Shown here: positions 2,221 through 19,158 of the stretch, one piece after another | How the letters are laid out: every line of letters begins with the position of its first letter | Numbering within the stretch: the first letter of the stretch is position 1 | Source of the DNA: a virus | DNA length: 23,517 nucleotides | Reading direction: 5' to 3' (one strand) | Virus record (IMG/VR): IMGVR_UViG_3300042691_023224 | Location: 1 to 23,517 of that record | Made by a program: the position numbers and the translations under genes | The notes under the pieces: generated by a model | Seen by the model: only the letters and a program-made list of their open reading frames with translations | The model's database searches: none | Told to the model about the DNA's origin: nothing

Positions 2221-2553
2221 CTATAGGGGTTTTTTAAATCTTGTGCCTTTGCTTGCATTAAGAATGTTTAACCTACCTTTATGATATGCGTCTTTAGCGT
2301 TATCCGATGGCGTTCCTAAGAATAAATGATCTGGGCGAACACAAGAAGGGTTATCGCACCTATGACAAACGAGCATTCCTTTTGGTATTGGATTGAAATT
2401 TAACACAATAACAGACATAACTAATCTACTAACCTGTGTGTATTTTCCCGCTATTCTTATCCTTCCGTAGCCGTATGCGTTCTTTTCCCCTTTCCATTCC
2501 CAGCATAAATCTGATTTCTCAGTGTATTTTTCTAATTTGTCTAAAATATCCAT
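2221..2553 (-). CDS. HNH homing endonuclease (HNH_3-type), 110 aa
   Basis: Leftward gene, start codon at 2553. The N-terminal CWEWKG and AYGYGRI followed by VSRLVM are typical of the HNH_3 family of free-standing phage homing endonucleases. The catalytic core is residues about 60-85: LVCHRCDNPSCVRPDHLFLGT, with the zinc-type Cys/His pairs and the His/Asn/His arrangement of the beta-beta-alpha-metal fold. It is followed by SDNAKDAYHKGR, the usual tail of this family. Such enzymes nick or cut a site in a relative's genome and spread by repair copying. It has its own promoter (2582-2612) on the leftward strand and stands alone in the rightward phage backbone, so it is an insertion. Its target is not evident. 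Confidence 0.88.
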   Translation of the reverse strand: MDILDKLEKYTEKSDLCWEWKGEKNAYGYGRIRIAGKYTQVSRLVMSVIVLNFNPIPKGMLVCHRCDNPSCVRPDHLFLGTPSDNAKDAYHKGRLNILNASKGTRFKKPL

Positions 2554-3083: not shown

Positions 3084-3359
3084 ATGAATAGAAGAGGTTT
3101 TATAAAAAGGCTTGGGGTGTTAGGGGTAGCGAGTTTATTGCCTGATTTAAAATTTGGGGATAATGAGGTTGAGTTGGGTCCGCGCCCGGCTGAGAAGTTT
3201 ATAAATCACATGACTATTCAAAGGAGGACTTATCCAATTACCGGATCTGTTAATGCGCGAGGTTGTTTTACTATTATTGACGGTAAAGAAAAATACGTTT
3301 GGTATAAGATGGATAGTGGTGGTAATTGGGTTTTATGTAATAAGCAAGATTTTGTATGA
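3084..3359 (+). CDS. Small protein with Tat-like N-terminus and major-capsid-like segment, 91 aa
   Basis: Residues 1-22 (MNRRGFIKRLGVLGVASLLP) read like a twin-arginine signal: RRGFIK followed by a weakly hydrophobic stretch. Residues about 40-80 resemble the window's own major capsid protein at residues about 205-245: both have NHMTIQR[RK]T, then TGS, then [VL]WY followed by [DE]-[SN]-G. The insert between TGS and WY is a few residues longer here. The gene ends in a TGA that overlaps the ATG of the GIY-YIG gene, an overlap that may originally have belonged to the small terminase. No function is known. A capsid-assembly modifier, a decoy or a relic of recombination are possibilities. Export by Tat is not proven, since phage proteins with Tat-like starts may stay in the cytoplasm. 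Confidence 0.65.
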   Translation: MNRRGFIKRLGVLGVASLLPDLKFGDNEVELGPRPAEKFINHMTIQRRTYPITGSVNARGCFTIIDGKEKYVWYKMDSGGNWVLCNKQDFV

Positions 3360-4228
3360 GCTTGGTTAATGATATAAAGAAATATAAAATTTATGCTCTA
3401 TGTGAGCCTTGTTCTAAAATTATAAGATATATAGGATTAACAGGAGATTCATTAAAAAGACGTTATTATGACCATTATAAGTGTAGTGTTAATACAAAAA
3501 AGAGCAGTTGGGTAAAATCAAAAAAGATTATTGGATTGAGGCCAAAATTGATAATTATTGAAAATAATCTTACGTTACATGAAGCAAAATCTAAAGAAAT
3601 ATATTACATATCTTATTATAAATCACTAGGGTTGAATTTAGTAAATGGGACAAGCGGAGGTGACGGTTTATTTAATCCTAGCGTAGAGGTAAGGAAGAAA
3701 ATAGGGGATGCTCACCGTGGTAAAAAGATAAGTCCAGAACATATTAATGTCCTTAAAAAACTTGGAATGAATAGGATTTGGACAAAAGAACAAAGAGAAA
3801 AGGCATCCCTAAGTAATAAAGGAAAATTATTATCAGAGGCCACGAAGGAAAAATTATCTTATTTTCGTAAAAATACGCCCTTTAGTGAAAAGCATATTGA
3901 AAATATACGGAAAAGTAAAAAAAAGATTAAGGGTATTAAAATATCAGAAGAGCGTAGATTAAACATGATAGGAAGAAAACGTAGTATAGAGGCAAAAAAC
4001 AAACATTCTATATCTATGAAGTTACATTTTGCTAATATGGATAAAGAAAAAAGAAATAATATAAATAAACATTTTTGTAAATTATCAGAACATGAATTAA
4101 AAGAAATGATTGTGTTAAAAAGAAACGGATACACTTATTCGTTTTTAGCTAAAAAATATAATATTACAGCAAAAACAGTATATTTAAATTTAATAAAACA
4201 AGGTTATGAGCCTAATAATAGACGTTGA
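3356..4228 (+). CDS. GIY-YIG homing endonuclease with NUMOD3 repeats and C-terminal HTH, 290 aa
   Basis: Domains in order: GIY-YIG nuclease, residues about 11-100, with the two tyrosines Y13 and Y25 (KIYAL and RYIG), probable catalytic R36 and H40, and metal-binding E81; then NUMOD3-type DNA-binding motifs (VRKKIGDAHRGKKISPEH and later NKGKLLSEATKEKLS); then a helix-turn-helix at about 245-285 (ELKEMIVLKRNGYTYSFLAKKYN). It is a free-standing homing enzyme. It lies exactly on the boundary between the 3084 gene and the small terminase, overlapping the former by 4 bases and the latter by 23. Its first ten residues (MSLVNDIKK) resemble the small terminase start (MSLIIDVDIKN) in the same frame, as though the nuclease took over a copy of that start. 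It is AT-rich compared with the G-rich genes around it, consistent with insertion. Confidence 0.9.
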   Translation: MSLVNDIKKYKIYALCEPCSKIIRYIGLTGDSLKRRYYDHYKCSVNTKKSSWVKSKKIIGLRPKLIIIENNLTLHEAKSKEIYYISYYKSLGLNLVNGTSGGDGLFNPSVEVRKKIGDAHRGKKISPEHINVLKKLGMNRIWTKEQREKASLSNKGKLLSEATKEKLSYFRKNTPFSEKHIENIRKSKKKIKGIKISEERRLNMIGRKRSIEAKNKHSISMKLHFANMDKEKRNNINKHFCKLSEHELKEMIVLKRNGYTYSFLAKKYNITAKTVYLNLIKQGYEPNNRR

Positions 4229-4772
4229 TATAAAAAATAATACCATATTACGTCCGGGGGTGCTTGGGTTGTGTCCGGCGTTAGGGGCGTTGGATGAGAG
4301 GGAGTTGATTGTGGTGGCGTTGGTGTATGATAATTGTAGTCCTATGAGGAGGTATAATTTGGGGGATAGGATTAGGCGGAGTATATTGCAAGTTTACGAG
4401 AATGACAATAACCCTAAGTTGTTGTCCGCGCTTGAGAACATGGAGGATGGTCATAGGATAACGAGGGCGGTTTATTATTATAAGGGTTTACAGTATGACA
4501 GGAAGGAGGCGATGATCGAGCAATATAAGGTGATGATTGATGATGTGAGGGATCAGATGGATGTTAGTGGCGGGACTACTAAGTTGAAGAAGGATTTGGA
4601 GAGTATAGAGATGCTTGAGAAGAGCATTAAGGCATTGGAGGCGGAGCGGGATGATGATATTGTGGCGATGGGTGTTTTGAAGGGTGGGGCGGATAATAGT
4701 TTGATTGAGTTGTGGCAAAAGAATTTAAAGAACTGGGAGAGTATTAAGAACAAAAAACCTGTTAAGGCATGA
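4206..4772 (+). CDS. Putative terminase small subunit, 188 aa
   Basis: Called by position and architecture, since I do not recognise a family signature. It directly precedes and overlaps the large terminase (ATGA at 4769-4772). The N-terminal part (residues 25-70) is helical and could hold a DNA-binding helix-turn-helix. The C-terminal half is charged and predicted coiled-coil (residues 95-150, KLKKDLESIEMLEKSIKALEAERDD), fitting an oligomeric ring. In a terminase it would recognise the packaging site and load DNA for the motor. The coding strand is extremely G-rich (4261-4320 has 29 G and 6 C). The start at ATG 4206 lies inside the end of the GIY-YIG gene, and the bases around it match the GIY-YIG start region. 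Confidence 0.55.
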   Translation: MSLIIDVDIKNNTILRPGVLGLCPALGALDERELIVVALVYDNCSPMRRYNLGDRIRRSILQVYENDNNPKLLSALENMEDGHRITRAVYYYKGLQYDRKEAMIEQYKVMIDDVRDQMDVSGGTTKLKKDLESIEMLEKSIKALEAERDDDIVAMGVLKGGADNSLIELWQKNLKNWESIKNKKPVKA

Positions 4773-14591: not shown

Positions 14592-15719
14592 ATGGAAAGC
14601 GTATTAACGGCTCCTAAAGGGAGTGAAATCCAAAAAAAAGAAGTTCCTTTAACCGTAATGGTAAAAGACGGGAACGGATTCGAAGTAGAGGTGTATAATT
14701 TAGAACACCCAGATAATTGTCCGCGCACAGGAATAGTGGTAGTGGAACTTATCAAAAAGAAAAATTACACGGCGGACAGAGACATTAACATGGAGATCTC
14801 CGCTTATACCGACAAGACCACAGGACTTATGTGGGGTAAATATTCCGGTATAGACAACATTTCGAAAGAAATTCGTTGGAAAAAAATCAAACTTAACCCT
14901 TTAAACATTTTTGACCGTAGCATTAAAGATCAGGCAGAAAAATGCGCCATTGTTCTTAATAGCCCGGTAGTAGAAGGGTCAAGAAACGCCGTATATCGTT
15001 TGACTTTTTTCCGTCAGCACGATAAAGAAATCGAAGCGAATCTTAAGATCAAACGCATTAAAGCCGGACAAAGAGCTTTAAGTATTGCGGAATCGTTATA
15101 TGGAGAAAAATTACTCCAAATGGCCCGTAACTTAGCTTTACCAGTAACATCCATGAGTTTATCCATGATAACCGCGGCGGTACTAGAAAAAGCAGAACAG
15201 GACCCTACAGGGTTTTTAGCTATCTATGACAATCCTCATTACGAAGCGTTAAGCGTTTTAAACGCAGCGATCGAAGTGGCGGTTATAGAAAACGACCCTC
15301 AAACAGGGTATTTATTCAAAGGCCGTCCTATGGGAACTACAGAAGGGGAAGCGATTGACTTTTTGGTTAAACACAAAGACATTCAGTCCTCTATTGATAT
15401 GCAAACTAAGAATCGCCAATCTGAATCAATTAAAGCCATGGCTACTCAGGAAGCGGTATCAACCGCCTCTGATAAAGATGTTGAAATGGCATTAATGAGA
15501 AAGCAATTAGCCGAGCAAAAAGCCCTTATTGAAAAAATGAGCGCGGAAGGTATGAAGCAAGTTGTAGAGGAAGAAAAAGGTGATGCTGATCATATTGTTA
15601 AATTAAAAGACAGAGCAAGAGCTTTGAAAATTAAAGCCGTTCATGCTTATAAAAGCCCAGAAGCCATTAAGAAATTAGAGGCTTTAGTTAAGGCTAAAGA
15701 AGCGGAACTTAATAAATAA
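14592..15719 (+). CDS. Putative virion-associated protein with C-terminal SAP/HeH-like motif, 375 aa
   Basis: Unrecognised core. The N-terminal third (residues 15-150) reads as beta-rich, while residues 155-260 are helical and hydrophobic (LPVTSMSLSMITAAVLEKAE). Residues about 290-330 form a coiled coil (MALMRKQLAEQKALIEKMSAE). The C-terminal 40 residues (LKDRARALKIKAVHAYKSPEAIKKLEALV) resemble a helix-extension-helix/SAP-like motif (LR-x-x-A-K-x-L-x-I-K-x-x-H...), which binds DNA or ends capsid-associated proteins in many phages. Location between capsid and connector genes suggests a head or internal virion protein. It begins 23 bases after the terminator and ends in its own terminator, so it is a monocistronic unit. 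Confidence 0.5.
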   Translation: MESVLTAPKGSEIQKKEVPLTVMVKDGNGFEVEVYNLEHPDNCPRTGIVVVELIKKKNYTADRDINMEISAYTDKTTGLMWGKYSGIDNISKEIRWKKIKLNPLNIFDRSIKDQAEKCAIVLNSPVVEGSRNAVYRLTFFRQHDKEIEANLKIKRIKAGQRALSIAESLYGEKLLQMARNLALPVTSMSLSMITAAVLEKAEQDPTGFLAIYDNPHYEALSVLNAAIEVAVIENDPQTGYLFKGRPMGTTEGEAIDFLVKHKDIQSSIDMQTKNRQSESIKAMATQEAVSTASDKDVEMALMRKQLAEQKALIEKMSAEGMKQVVEEEKGDADHIVKLKDRARALKIKAVHAYKSPEAIKKLEALVKAKEAELNK

Positions 15720-15745
15720 TCACACAACTAAACACAACCAAAGAG

Positions 15746-15774
15746 GGCGGACATAAAAGTTCGCCTTTTTTTTT
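15746..15774 (+). terminator. Intrinsic terminator containing a GCGGAC motif
   Basis: Stem GGCGGAC (15746-15752) paired with GTTCGCC (15759-15765), one G-T pair, six-base loop, then nine T. It sits 27 bases after the stop of the 375-aa gene. The left arm is one copy of the window's over-represented hexamer. Confidence 0.85.
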
Positions 15775-15800
15775 ATACCTTTACTTTAAAATTATAACAC

Positions 15801-16586
15801 ATGAACGCAATTCAATTTCAGTTAGAAATAGATCTATATATAGACAGAGCAAGGAATGCCCGTTATTATCGTTACCAATACGATACCGCAGTAAATGACG
15901 CTATCCGATTATTTATTGAACAGAGGGCTGGTGATAAAAAACAAGAAAATCCTGTGCTGAATTATAAATCAGAACAACAGGTCGCGGACGAACTATACAC
16001 TCTTTATAAAACCCAAACAGCAGCACCGACAGCAGATATAGCTCTGTATCCGGCAGATTATTATTTCTTAACTTCTGCTTACGCTACAATAGGAGGAGTG
16101 AGATCTTATTGCCGTCCTGTAGTAGAAAACCAATTAGGTCCATTACTAAAAGATTCTTTCCGCAAACCAACTGATATAATGCCTTATTATTTTCAGGAAT
16201 TAACCGGGTTTAAAATTTATCACGGAACAGGAACGATCACTTCTGCTGAGCTGAATTACTTAAAGACACCCGCTACTTTCACTATAGGAACAGAAGCGCA
16301 ATTGATTAACGCTGGAGCGGCTGTTGTTACAATTGGACAGTCTTATATCGCTACGGAGATAAGTGTACAGAATGGTGTTACTTACAATCCCGGTACACAA
16401 TTTACCGCCGCGGTTACTACTACGTTAGCTAGTGGGCAGGTGATCTTAGCTAGTAACACTACCACTTCAGACCTTCCTGATAAAACACATAAGGAACTGG
16501 CAAAAATTTCCGCGGAAATTTTGCTCGGAACTGTAGGTTCTTTAACTCAATCAAATTATGTTAGCAAGGAAGCGTCAAAATCATAA
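15801..16586 (+). CDS. Putative head-tail connector/adaptor protein, 261 aa
   Basis: Position after the capsid genes and before the large structural protein suggests a head-completion or adaptor role. The N-terminal 60 residues are helical with Arg/Tyr pairs (DRARNARYYRYQYDTAVNDAIRLF). A PADYYFL segment at about residues 93-99 and a later KTHKELAKISAEILLGT helix resemble Bacteroidota-phage structural proteins in which a conserved helix ends the protein. Between them are beta-rich Thr/Ala/Ile segments. No known family is assigned with confidence. The last 18 residues (TVGSLTQSNYVSKEASKS) are repeated, in diverged form, at the end of the following GIY-YIG gene, whose start codon lies 29 bases inside this gene. 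Confidence 0.45.
   Translation: MNAIQFQLEIDLYIDRARNARYYRYQYDTAVNDAIRLFIEQRAGDKKQENPVLNYKSEQQVADELYTLYKTQTAAPTADIALYPADYYFLTSAYATIGGVRSYCRPVVENQLGPLLKDSFRKPTDIMPYYFQELTGFKIYHGTGTITSAELNYLKTPATFTIGTEAQLINAGAAVVTIGQSYIATEISVQNGVTYNPGTQFTAAVTTTLASGQVILASNTTTSDLPDKTHKELAKISAEILLGTVGSLTQSNYVSKEASKS
16530..16586 (+). repeat. Gene-end repeat, left copy (3' end of connector gene)
   Basis: 57 bases encoding TVGSLTQSNYVSKEASKS plus stop. By hand alignment 39 of 57 bases and 14 of 18 residues match the right copy at 17344-17400, with nine codons differing only synonymously. Confidence 0.8.
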
Positions 16587-17400
16587 AGGGTGCGAGGAAA
16601 GAATTTTTTCCGTTTATGCTTTAAAAGAGCCTGAATCTGATATTGTAAGATATATTGGCTATACAGGTAAGTCGATTGAATATAGATTAAGGAGACACTT
16701 AGATGGAGGAAAAACAAGAAAAGATAATTGGATAAAAAGTCTTAAAAATAAAGGACTTCGTCCTTCTATTGAGTTATTGGATGATAACTTATTGTATGAG
16801 GAGGCTATTCAGAAAGAAATAGATTATATAAAATTATTTCTTTCAGCAGGAGCAAGGCTTACTAATTTAACTATAGGAGGAGACGGAATGAGACTGGGAT
16901 ATATGTCAGATGAGGTTAGAAAGAAAATAGGAAATGCGCATAGAGGTAAAAAATATAATGAAGAGACGTTAAAGAAAATGTCAGAAGGACAAAAGGGGAG
17001 AATAGCGTGGAATAAAGGAACTAAAGGCGTATGTAAAGCGTGGAATAAGGGAATTAAGTCAAATGCGCCAAGCCCAAGAAAGGGTAAACAATTTAGTAAA
17101 GAAGTAAGAGAAAAGATGTCTAAGGCAAGAATGGGAAAAATACCTTGGAACAAAGGAAAGGGTGGTTATAAAATCAAGCCAAGAACAGAAGATCGGCAAA
17201 AAGAAATAGTGGCAAATATTTCTAAAGGGGCTAAAAATAGAAATTACACTAATGACGGTAGAAGAAAAATATCCGAATCCAGAAAAAGACAAATAAAGGA
17301 AGGTAAATCTAATCTTAAACATATTCAGGAATATATAAATCGTACCGTTGGATCATTAACCGAATCAGCTTACGCAAGTAAAGAAGCGGCGAAAAGTTAA
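16558..17400 (+). CDS. GIY-YIG homing endonuclease ending in a copy of the host gene's C-terminus, 280 aa
   Basis: GIY-YIG nuclease at residues about 16-105: Y20 (SVYAL) and Y32 (RYIGYTG), catalytic R43, H47, and metal-binding E87 in QKEIDYI. Next come NUMOD3-type DNA-binding modules (VRKKIGNAHRGKKY) and three WNKG repeats (AWNKGTKG, AWNKGIKS, PWNKGKGG). It is a paralogue of the 3356 gene: both share the NUMOD segment VRKKIG[DN]AHRGKK. The final 18 residues, TVGSLTESAYASKEAAKS, are not part of the endonuclease family; they copy the C-terminus of the preceding connector gene. The start ATG 16558 lies within the connector gene in another frame. The gene thus fills precisely the gap between two copies of the connector gene's end. 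Confidence 0.88.
   Translation: MLARKRQNHKGCEERIFSVYALKEPESDIVRYIGYTGKSIEYRLRRHLDGGKTRKDNWIKSLKNKGLRPSIELLDDNLLYEEAIQKEIDYIKLFLSAGARLTNLTIGGDGMRLGYMSDEVRKKIGNAHRGKKYNEETLKKMSEGQKGRIAWNKGTKGVCKAWNKGIKSNAPSPRKGKQFSKEVREKMSKARMGKIPWNKGKGGYKIKPRTEDRQKEIVANISKGAKNRNYTNDGRRKISESRKRQIKEGKSNLKHIQEYINRTVGSLTESAYASKEAAKS
17344..17400 (+). repeat. Gene-end repeat, right copy (fused to GIY-YIG C-terminus)
   Basis: The diverged partner of 16530-16586, in frame with the endonuclease. It probably represents the original end of the connector gene before the endonuclease arrived with its own replacement end. Confidence 0.75.
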
Positions 17401-17407
17401 TAAATCG

Positions 17408-17424
17408 TTGTATATTTTATACAA
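17408..17424. repeat. Short inverted repeat downstream of GIY-YIG gene
   Basis: TTGTATA and TATACAA arms with a TTT loop, directly after the GIY-YIG stop and before the large structural gene. AT-only stem with no following T-run, so a weak RNA structure or protein-binding site rather than a clear terminator. Confidence 0.3.
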
Positions 17425-17511
17425 GTGTATAACTCCTAATAAGTTACAATATCAACATTTTAAGTAATGGTTATTTTTACGGTATTATAAACCAATTAAA
17501 AAATAACTAAA

Positions 17512-19158
17512 ATGACTCAAAATTTCGAATCAGTATTGTTCAGAACGTCCGCAGCGACAGACGTACAATGCAGTGGCGGAGTAATAACCGTCGCAGGTTT
17601 GCCAACGAGTACAAGAAAAGTTAGAATCACGGATTTTAAACAAGTAAAGTACAGGGCAGAAGTAGTTCAGGTTTACACTTTAACTACAACTTACACTCCG
17701 GCAGGAGGAACAACTTACGCTTTAGAGATGGGCGACATTAACCGCGTGAATGCAGGTTATCAATCTTCTTTATTGCCGTTCTCTTACACAACTCCTACTG
17801 ATGTTACTACATTAGGAGCTACAGCCGCTTTACAACGTGAAGCTATCGCTGCTGCTTTAGTAACTGCCATCAACACCGCAACAGCGTACAATTACATTAC
17901 CGCCGCATCTTTAGGTACAGGAACAGGTATTACTTTAACTGATAGCTCAGGGTATTACCCAGTGCCTCAGCAAGGAGTAAACAACCGTTTAGGTGCTTCT
18001 CAGGTGTATGCAATTACCAATTCTGACGGATCCGGTTTCACTCAGTCAATGCTTTCGATCACTACTGCCGCGGTTTACGAATTCGGTGTTGGTGCTAACT
18101 TAGCGTTAACTAAACCAGTTATCGACGGTATGTATCAAAACCTTATCCAAGGCTACTTACAACCTCTTGGTAATTTTGCTCCTACTACTAAATCTGCTAC
18201 TGCTGCATTGAACAATTTACCAGCGGTTTCAGGTCAGAAGTACGATGCGTTTGTTATCAATTCACTTGCTTTAGCTCCGGCTCACAATCAGCGCGGACAA
18301 GAAGCTTATATCCAAAAGATACAAGGTGTTTTTATTGATAACGGTACTGGAACAGACACTACTAACTTAGCTGGATTTAAAGCTATCGAGCGCGTATTCC
18401 ACAAACTATTAGTAGGACAATATGCTACTGATGCTTCGACCGTTCAAGAATGGTTTGATCGTCCTATTGTATTCCAAGATCCATTAGGCGCGGCTCCAAC
18501 AGGAACAGCAGACACCCTTGGATGGCAATACGGATACACTCCGTTAAACCGTACAAACATCGGATCACAAACTATCGTGGCTCCAGTTCTTGACGATACC
18601 GGATTGTTAATCGATCAAGACGATACAGCAGGTGAAGGTTCACATACTTCTGCTAACCAACAAGTGTTAGGAGATCAATCTTTTGTTGTTGGTAAAACAG
18701 CATTCATGGTTGGTTGCCGCGTTGTTGCTGGCGATTGGACTGACACTCAGTTTATGGTTGGTTTCCGTAAAAAAGCTGTTTACACAGCCGATTACAACAA
18801 CTATACTGACTTAGCCGCTATTGGTGGCGGTGCCGCTGACGGTGATTCTATCACTACTCAGGGTATTCTTAATAACGCAGCTACAGTAGCTACAGACAGC
18901 GGAACAAACTTCGCTGACGGAGTGTCTATGTTGTTGTTCGTTAAGGTTGCCTTAGATGGTACTGTAACTACTTATTTTGCTAACGCAAATGGCGGATTAA
19001 CATCTGCTGCGATCTACTCAGTAGGTACAACTACTCTAATATTAGACGCTGGTGATGAGATGATTCCTTTCTATCAACACGTAAATATCGGTAACGGTAA
19101 CCCGGCTGTATCAATAGGTGAGTTTTTTGCAGTTGCAACTACGGACCTAATTGCATAA
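17512..19158 (+). CDS. Large virion structural protein, 548 aa
   Basis: A large Thr/Gly/Ala/Asn-rich protein with few charged residues and beta-rich sequence, typical of exposed phage structural proteins. Residues 20-160 contain repeated short strands and TTYTPAGGTTYAL-type turns. The last 150 residues (about 385-545) read as a beta-sandwich (SFVVGKTAFMVGCRVVAGDWTDTQFMVGFRKK, then TTYFANANGG) similar in style to concanavalin-like or decoration domains that bind glycans. Candidate roles are a major tail, sheath-like or head-spike protein; order alone cannot separate these. A near-consensus -7 element (TATTTTTA, 17472-17479) lies 32 bases upstream. A strong terminator follows. Confidence 0.55.
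   Translation: MTQNFESVLFRTSAATDVQCSGGVITVAGLPTSTRKVRITDFKQVKYRAEVVQVYTLTTTYTPAGGTTYALEMGDINRVNAGYQSSLLPFSYTTPTDVTTLGATAALQREAIAAALVTAINTATAYNYITAASLGTGTGITLTDSSGYYPVPQQGVNNRLGASQVYAITNSDGSGFTQSMLSITTAAVYEFGVGANLALTKPVIDGMYQNLIQGYLQPLGNFAPTTKSATAALNNLPAVSGQKYDAFVINSLALAPAHNQRGQEAYIQKIQGVFIDNGTGTDTTNLAGFKAIERVFHKLLVGQYATDASTVQEWFDRPIVFQDPLGAAPTGTADTLGWQYGYTPLNRTNIGSQTIVAPVLDDTGLLIDQDDTAGEGSHTSANQQVLGDQSFVVGKTAFMVGCRVVAGDWTDTQFMVGFRKKAVYTADYNNYTDLAAIGGGAADGDSITTQGILNNAATVATDSGTNFADGVSMLLFVKVALDGTVTTYFANANGGLTSAAIYSVGTTTLILDAGDEMIPFYQHVNIGNGNPAVSIGEFFAVATTDLIA

Follow-up and report, generated by a model that had tools for sequence, protein, structure and literature searches.

Free-standing homing endonucleases of phages are usually placed between genes or in introns and inteins, so that harmless landing sites are limited. 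GIY-YIG genes of the I-TevI type and their relatives are often carried by introns. In the mitochondrial atp6, atp9, cox2, and nad3 genes of Glomus, an endonuclease mORF lies between an inserted and the native C-terminus of the host gene (PMC3630166). The mORF of Glomus atp9 encodes a GIY-YIG enzyme, and the inserted and native ends of atp6 share 63.5% identity in DNA and 91% in protein (PMC3630166). The atp6 gene of Allomyces macrogynus likewise carries an mORF with a duplicated C-terminus (Paquin et al. 1994, as summarized in PMC3630166). In T4-type phages, according to the sections of PMC2988022 that deal with them, free-standing seg and mob endonucleases lie between genes, and mobE/mobA insertions split nrdA, for example in phage Aeh1.

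Here, we analyzed a 23,517-base stretch of viral DNA (the window), a complete IMG/VR record that is itself probably a genome fragment. A predicted GIY-YIG endonuclease gene, HEG1, stands in it between two diverged copies of the 3' end of a connector-like virion gene. The features of this locus are as follows.

15801-16586, plus strand: connector-like virion gene, 261 aa; the putatively invaded gene, with same-position homologs in 24 related contigs
16530-16586, plus strand: left copy of the gene end, 18 codons plus stop; currently completes the connector gene
16558-17400, plus strand: HEG1, a predicted GIY-YIG free-standing homing endonuclease ORF, 280 aa, recognized by PHROG and NUMOD3 matches, residue pattern, and fold
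17344-17400, plus strand: right copy of the gene end; currently the C-terminal tail of HEG1
17401-17511, plus strand: 111-bp spacer before p548, with a hairpin just 3' of the right stop and a conserved ATTATAAACCAAT ahead of the p548 start
17512-19158, plus strand: p548, the next virion gene (tail/structural); a conserved neighbor that marks the empty site

The connector protein ends in TVGSLTQSNYVSKEASKS, with its stop at 16586, and HEG1, whose ATG is at 16558, ends in TVGSLTESAYASKEAAKS, with its stop at 17400. HEG1 therefore starts out of frame within the left copy, and its last codons are those of the right copy, read in frame. The two copies are identical at 39 of 57 bases (68%) and at 14 of 18 encoded residues (78%), and the stop codon is also shared. 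Nine codons differ synonymously and four nonsynonymously; by codon position, the base differences are distributed 4/3/11 over positions 1/2/3 (11 of 18 at third positions). On recount, the coordinates, base and residue identities, and nine synonymous codons reported in a first-pass annotation of this DNA were exact. The edge of homology is sharp, falling at a Thr codon (ACT at 16530 in the left copy, ACC at 17344 in the right), and the codons upstream are unmatched. Joining 15801-16529 to 17344-17400 yielded an intact connector ORF of 261 aa, the same length as at present. The connector stop lies 925 bp from the p548 start, and the HEG1 stop lies 111 bp from it. The 13-mer ATTATAAACCAAT of this spacer is also present in the spacer of contig L070.

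The phage is crAss-like, a distant relative of the Crassvirales, as judged from protein matches and gene order: it has homologous terminase, portal, and major capsid protein (MCP) genes in the usual order. The MCP is 24-26% identical to Crassvirales proteins (E down to 1e-8) and the portal 19-25% (E down to 3e-16), with a portal match to PHROG_6547 at 2.5e-40. The protein of 15801-16586 had no PHROG match and no Pfam match, and we call it connector-like (head-tail connector, connector/ring type) from its position when the gene order is compared with that of Crassvirales. No close match came from phage records or from scans with the connector or MCP as a single protein. A two-sequence portal alignment search opened the family, returning 21 related contigs, and a connector alignment search returned 23. 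The order TerL-portal-MCP-p375-connector-p548 of the window is also that of the related contigs, where connector homologs follow MCP and p375 and p548 homologs (42-65% identical) stand immediately behind the connector. In all 24 related contigs that span both the connector end and the next gene, the site was empty, with a single connector end, no endonuclease, and a gap of 58-132 bp between the connector end and p548. HEG1 is thus polymorphic in presence at an otherwise conserved site, and its arrangement with a duplicated 3' end was found in one contig only among the data searched. Connector core identity to the relatives is 36-63%; the nearest empty-site relative, at 60-63%, is too distant to display the right end as native directly. 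Since all 24 relatives have a single connector end and no insert, the 814-bp insertion bounded by the two gene ends is derived. The first-pass annotation had predicted a single connector gene in relatives without the endonuclease and had counted the presence of both tails in such relatives as evidence against its reading; the 24 single-ended contigs agree with the prediction on both points.

HEG1 matched the homing endonuclease family PHROG_314 (8e-12) and NUMOD3 (2.3e-11; 43.9 bits versus a cutoff of 20.4), whose repeats lie in the DNA-binding half of the protein. It has the conserved Y-YIG-E-N-GG pattern, with Y20, Y32, G34, E87, N103, and GG107-108 invariant across seven homologs. The Pfam GIY-YIG profile scored below threshold on HEG1 and above threshold on a relative in contig L014. 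Because HEG1 fell below this threshold, its fold was predicted. The AlphaFold (AF2) model was of low overall confidence (pLDDT 52). The top seven PDB matches of the model in Foldseek (probability 0.92-1.00) were to I-TevI (1ln0, 1mk0) and the restriction endonuclease PD-T4-3, and the probability for the I-TevI catalytic domain 1ln0/1mk0 was 0.99. The model supports the assignment of HEG1 as an I-TevI-like GIY-YIG nuclease. A second GIY-YIG gene of the window, HEG2, has a weakly recognized C-terminal helix-turn-helix region and HEG1 does not, which is consistent with truncation of HEG1 at a fusion. The endonuclease region is a low-GC island (0.30-0.36 versus 0.38-0.45). When bacterial genomes were scanned for the endonuclease, one locus was returned. 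Given that the HEG1 start lies out of frame inside the left copy, HEG1 is probably dependent on connector translation.

The likeness of the two ends stood well outside its null distributions. The flank-versus-flank protein score was 71 (shuffle maximum, 38), and the HEG1 C-terminus scored 67-68 against the upstream C-terminus (maximum of 36 among 1,190 mismatched endonuclease/neighbor pairs). When 18 random unconstrained base changes were introduced (20,000 simulations, starting from either copy), neither 14 of 18 residues nor nine synonymous codons was ever reached. A likeness by chance or by unconstrained drift is excluded. Since random change never matched the observed conservation, the two gene ends diverged under protein-level selection, and the proposal that both had been selected as connector ends is borne out by the synonymous pattern together with the simulations. 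The two ends would most simply have belonged once to two connector genes in two phages. Scores so far beyond the nulls make it extraordinarily improbable that the likeness is accidental or that the endonuclease family ordinarily carries such a tail as a conserved domain. Moreover, the tail resembles the conserved C-terminus of the connector family and was not found in HEG2, in the L014 endonuclease, or in about 35 further endonuclease loci, so that in the data searched it is not the family-wide feature that the first-pass annotation had considered damaging to its own reading. Genes of the HEG1 type are often intron-borne, and a group I intron, or an intein, carrying the endonuclease could be imagined to interrupt the connector gene, with the two ends as alternative exons. 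An Rfam search of 15700-17700 at E up to 1 detected no RNA family and no group I intron core, and the region therefore gives no sign of an intron. In addition, the left copy with its own stop already finishes the connector gene and the nuclease is out of frame with the connector, so that splicing is unneeded. We regard such an interruption as very improbable.

Which of the two ends is native is weakly resolved. The codon usage log-likelihood ratio was +1.5 for the left copy (like the endonuclease body) and -2.9 for the right (like structural genes; P about 0.07). At two of the four columns that differ, the right copy has A, the majority residue in the family; this copy also outscored the left against 14 of 18 relatives, the nearest included; the BLOSUM scores summed over these 18 relatives, all distant, were 403 for the right copy and 328 for the left. 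Against the nearest core relative, L011, the scores were 27 and 22, respectively. Four relatives (L012, L013, L014, and L089) favored the left copy, L073 was a tie, and DNA identity of the tail to relatives did not separate the copies. The right copy is probably the old native connector end, and the left copy probably arrived with the endonuclease. We consider this direction, which the first-pass annotation had proposed, likely. Of its claim that the endonuclease arrived with a recoded end, the derived insertion and the absence of the tail elsewhere stand, while the nativeness of the right copy is backed weakly (P about 0.07; relatives 36-63% identical). Conversely, the left copy could be native, with the endonuclease having come with the right copy from the connector of another phage and landed just behind the intact gene. 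The ends of L014, L012, L013, and L089 are slightly closer to the left copy, as this would predict; codon usage, the family-majority residues, and L011 oppose it, and insertion precisely at the stop codon of a homologous gene would be required, making it rather unlikely. The spacer follows the right copy under either direction and does not discriminate. It also seems quite improbable that the insertion doubled the last 57 bases in place and that the left copy was later recoded under selection to escape cutting. Near-identical copies can arise, as the exact 15-base duplication at contig L103 (see below) illustrates, and change in the left copy only, under purifying selection, is compatible with the two sequences. 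Nevertheless, the left copy would have had to take up at least 18 changes while the right took up hardly any, and nine synonymous plus four replacement codons in 18 demand strong protein-level selection, which is unexpected for an endonuclease tail.

In our judgment, the best explanation of the locus, and a likely one, is that a free-standing GIY-YIG homing endonuclease replaced the end of the gene. This explanation builds on the observation of two homologous ends with the mark of protein-level selection, empty sites in relatives, an I-TevI-like nuclease, and homologs that are free of the tail. We infer the identity of the foreign end, the cut position, and the repair route. The enzyme would have cleaved an allele of the connector gene that lacked the insert, at the beginning of its last 18 codons or close by. 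Upstream of the break, homologous repair would have copied in the endonuclease gene along with the left copy, the diverged connector end of a related donor phage; downstream, illegitimate (nonhomologous) joining would have linked the insert to the broken end of the recipient. In this way, the right copy, the former native end, would have been turned into an in-frame tail on an endonuclease truncated at its C-terminus. With the left copy completing it, the connector gene would have remained whole, and the divergence of that copy would shield the gene from recutting.

A related arrangement at the other end of a gene was found in L102 and L103, contigs from different metagenomes that are 94.8% identical and come from a phage unrelated to the window.

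L102:55-765 and L103:2971-3681: GIY-YIG gene; neighboring exonuclease gene at L103:3668-4693

This endonuclease starts with MKIPEKHSTS ahead of FYVYLHRR; a relative, in L060, starts nearly directly (MTKFYVYEHWR). The downstream Cas4-type exonuclease gene has its own start behind the endonuclease and begins MKIPEQTNT, with 15 bases identical to the endonuclease start (ATGAAAATACCTGAA). Insert-free exonuclease relatives begin MKIPEPDNS, MTKIPEPEN, MKLPNREHS, and MAKLPERQN, so the conserved MKIPE start is the exonuclease's own. By this sequence comparison, L102/L103 is the mirror image of the HEG1 locus, with the start of the downstream gene captured at the N-terminus of the endonuclease. As at HEG1, the endonuclease ORF bears the terminus of a neighboring gene, and relatives lack the insert. 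Here, however, a downstream neighbor supplies its 5' end, and over 15 bases the two copies show no divergence.

The window itself offers a second GIY-YIG gene for comparison, with the following features.

3356-4228, plus strand: HEG2, second GIY-YIG gene, 41-42% identical to HEG1 over the catalytic half
4206-4772, plus strand: p188, conserved gene ahead of the large terminase, with the N-terminus MSLIIDVDIK; its 5' end overlaps that of the HEG2 3' end
2221-2553, minus strand: HNH gene

The HEG2 N-terminus, MSLVNDIK, resembles that of p188 (score, 17; about 2% of mismatched pairs score equally high), and p188 homologs in related contigs begin in a similar style, e.g., MSLLLDVDTRNN and MSYLFYIDQKNN. 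This hints that the HEG2 N-terminus may be a captured start of p188, a likeness that is not significant alone. A GIY-YIG gene between terminase and portal at L014:2973-3683 (also in L015) starts MLSTIPQQN, which resembles the portal starts of relatives (MRSYPQTNV, MASQAQFPQQT); its possible origin as a captured portal start is suggestive only and likewise not significant alone. Depending on the measure, about 1-7% of background N-termini are as good as these two likenesses. Across 38 endonuclease/neighbor sets, only HEG1 (C-terminus) and L103 (N-terminus) scored above all mismatched pairs. Averaged over the whole set of pairs, the score was not significant (P = 0.06 to 0.19), and terminus capture is therefore not common among these 38 loci. 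Of further GIY-YIG genes flanked by a partial repeat of the upstream gene's 3' end, for which the first-pass annotation had recommended a search, none in the 38 sets scored above all mismatched pairs. We tentatively propose, on the doubtful side of an even balance, a general phage mode without intron or intein, in which homing endonucleases insert at 3' or 5' gene termini, supply a replacement terminus, and absorb the old one; at 5' ends (L102/L103, perhaps HEG2 and L014), they would inherit the ribosome-binding site and start codon of the host gene.

Three other candidates were set aside. Given how many tests were made, the likeness of ends at L058 (RILAAAND/RILSAANQ) is no better than chance, the flank match at L100 is probably an artifact of a called start inside the nuclease domain, and the repeats around HEG1 and HEG2 are background.

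The site before p188 resembles a hot spot, holding HEG2 in the window and HNH endonucleases in L091, L093, and L094, where they adjoin p188 or lie one or two small ORFs away. A small gene, conserved at 3084-3359 of the window, L010:1433-1681, and L013:4809 onwards, has a twin-arginine-like N-terminus (MNRRGFIKRLG) followed by a segment like an internal piece of the MCP, NHMTIQR[RK]T...TG. Just upstream of p188 in L012 (6963-7358) is a gene for a putative membrane protein of 131 aa; over its first 30 residues, this protein is similar to the C-terminus of the MCP (tblastn E = 0.003). In L043:2307-5763, and in L044, a GIY-YIG gene lies between apparent split-intein halves (...ADHRIFTKNRGYVEAGNL / ...EDVFDIQTEDHHNFYANGILVHN).

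End replacement during the invasion of an essential gene would open gene ends as targets for endonucleases, and would yield chimeric virion genes together with a searchable footprint. Since the window predicts the exact empty site and the likely cut region, the idea lends itself to direct testing.

The first-pass annotation had described gene-end replacement as rarely reported, a statement that gives way to its documentation in fungal mitochondria, including the GIY-YIG case of Glomus atp9 (PMC3630166). The architecture is thus already known, and its occurrence in a phage is the new setting; among open-license papers, our literature search found no phage case of gene-end replacement. With I-TevI, HEG1 shares a predicted catalytic fold and residues; unlike I-TevI, which is encoded in the td intron of T4, it has no intron seen around it. 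Like the T4-type endonucleases, HEG1 is free-standing and affects a protein-coding gene close to where it is inserted. Theirs are intergenic or split a gene into two polypeptides, and the passages searched in T4-type reviews describe no duplicated gene end. The fungal mORFs share the architecture of the HEG1 locus. In both, the endonuclease ORF is flanked by two diverged 3' ends of the host gene, the proximal copy finishes the host gene in frame while the distal copy stays on as a remnant, divergence is much greater in DNA than in protein (68% and 78% identity, respectively, at HEG1), and insert-free relatives are single-ended. Unlike the fungal cases, the window is from a double-stranded DNA phage, the gene is a virion gene, the replaced end is just 57 bases, and the HEG1 reading frame runs on into the distal copy, while its start codon lies within the proximal copy in another frame. 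If fungal mitochondria and a phage share this solution, the two would have converged on it in response to one problem.
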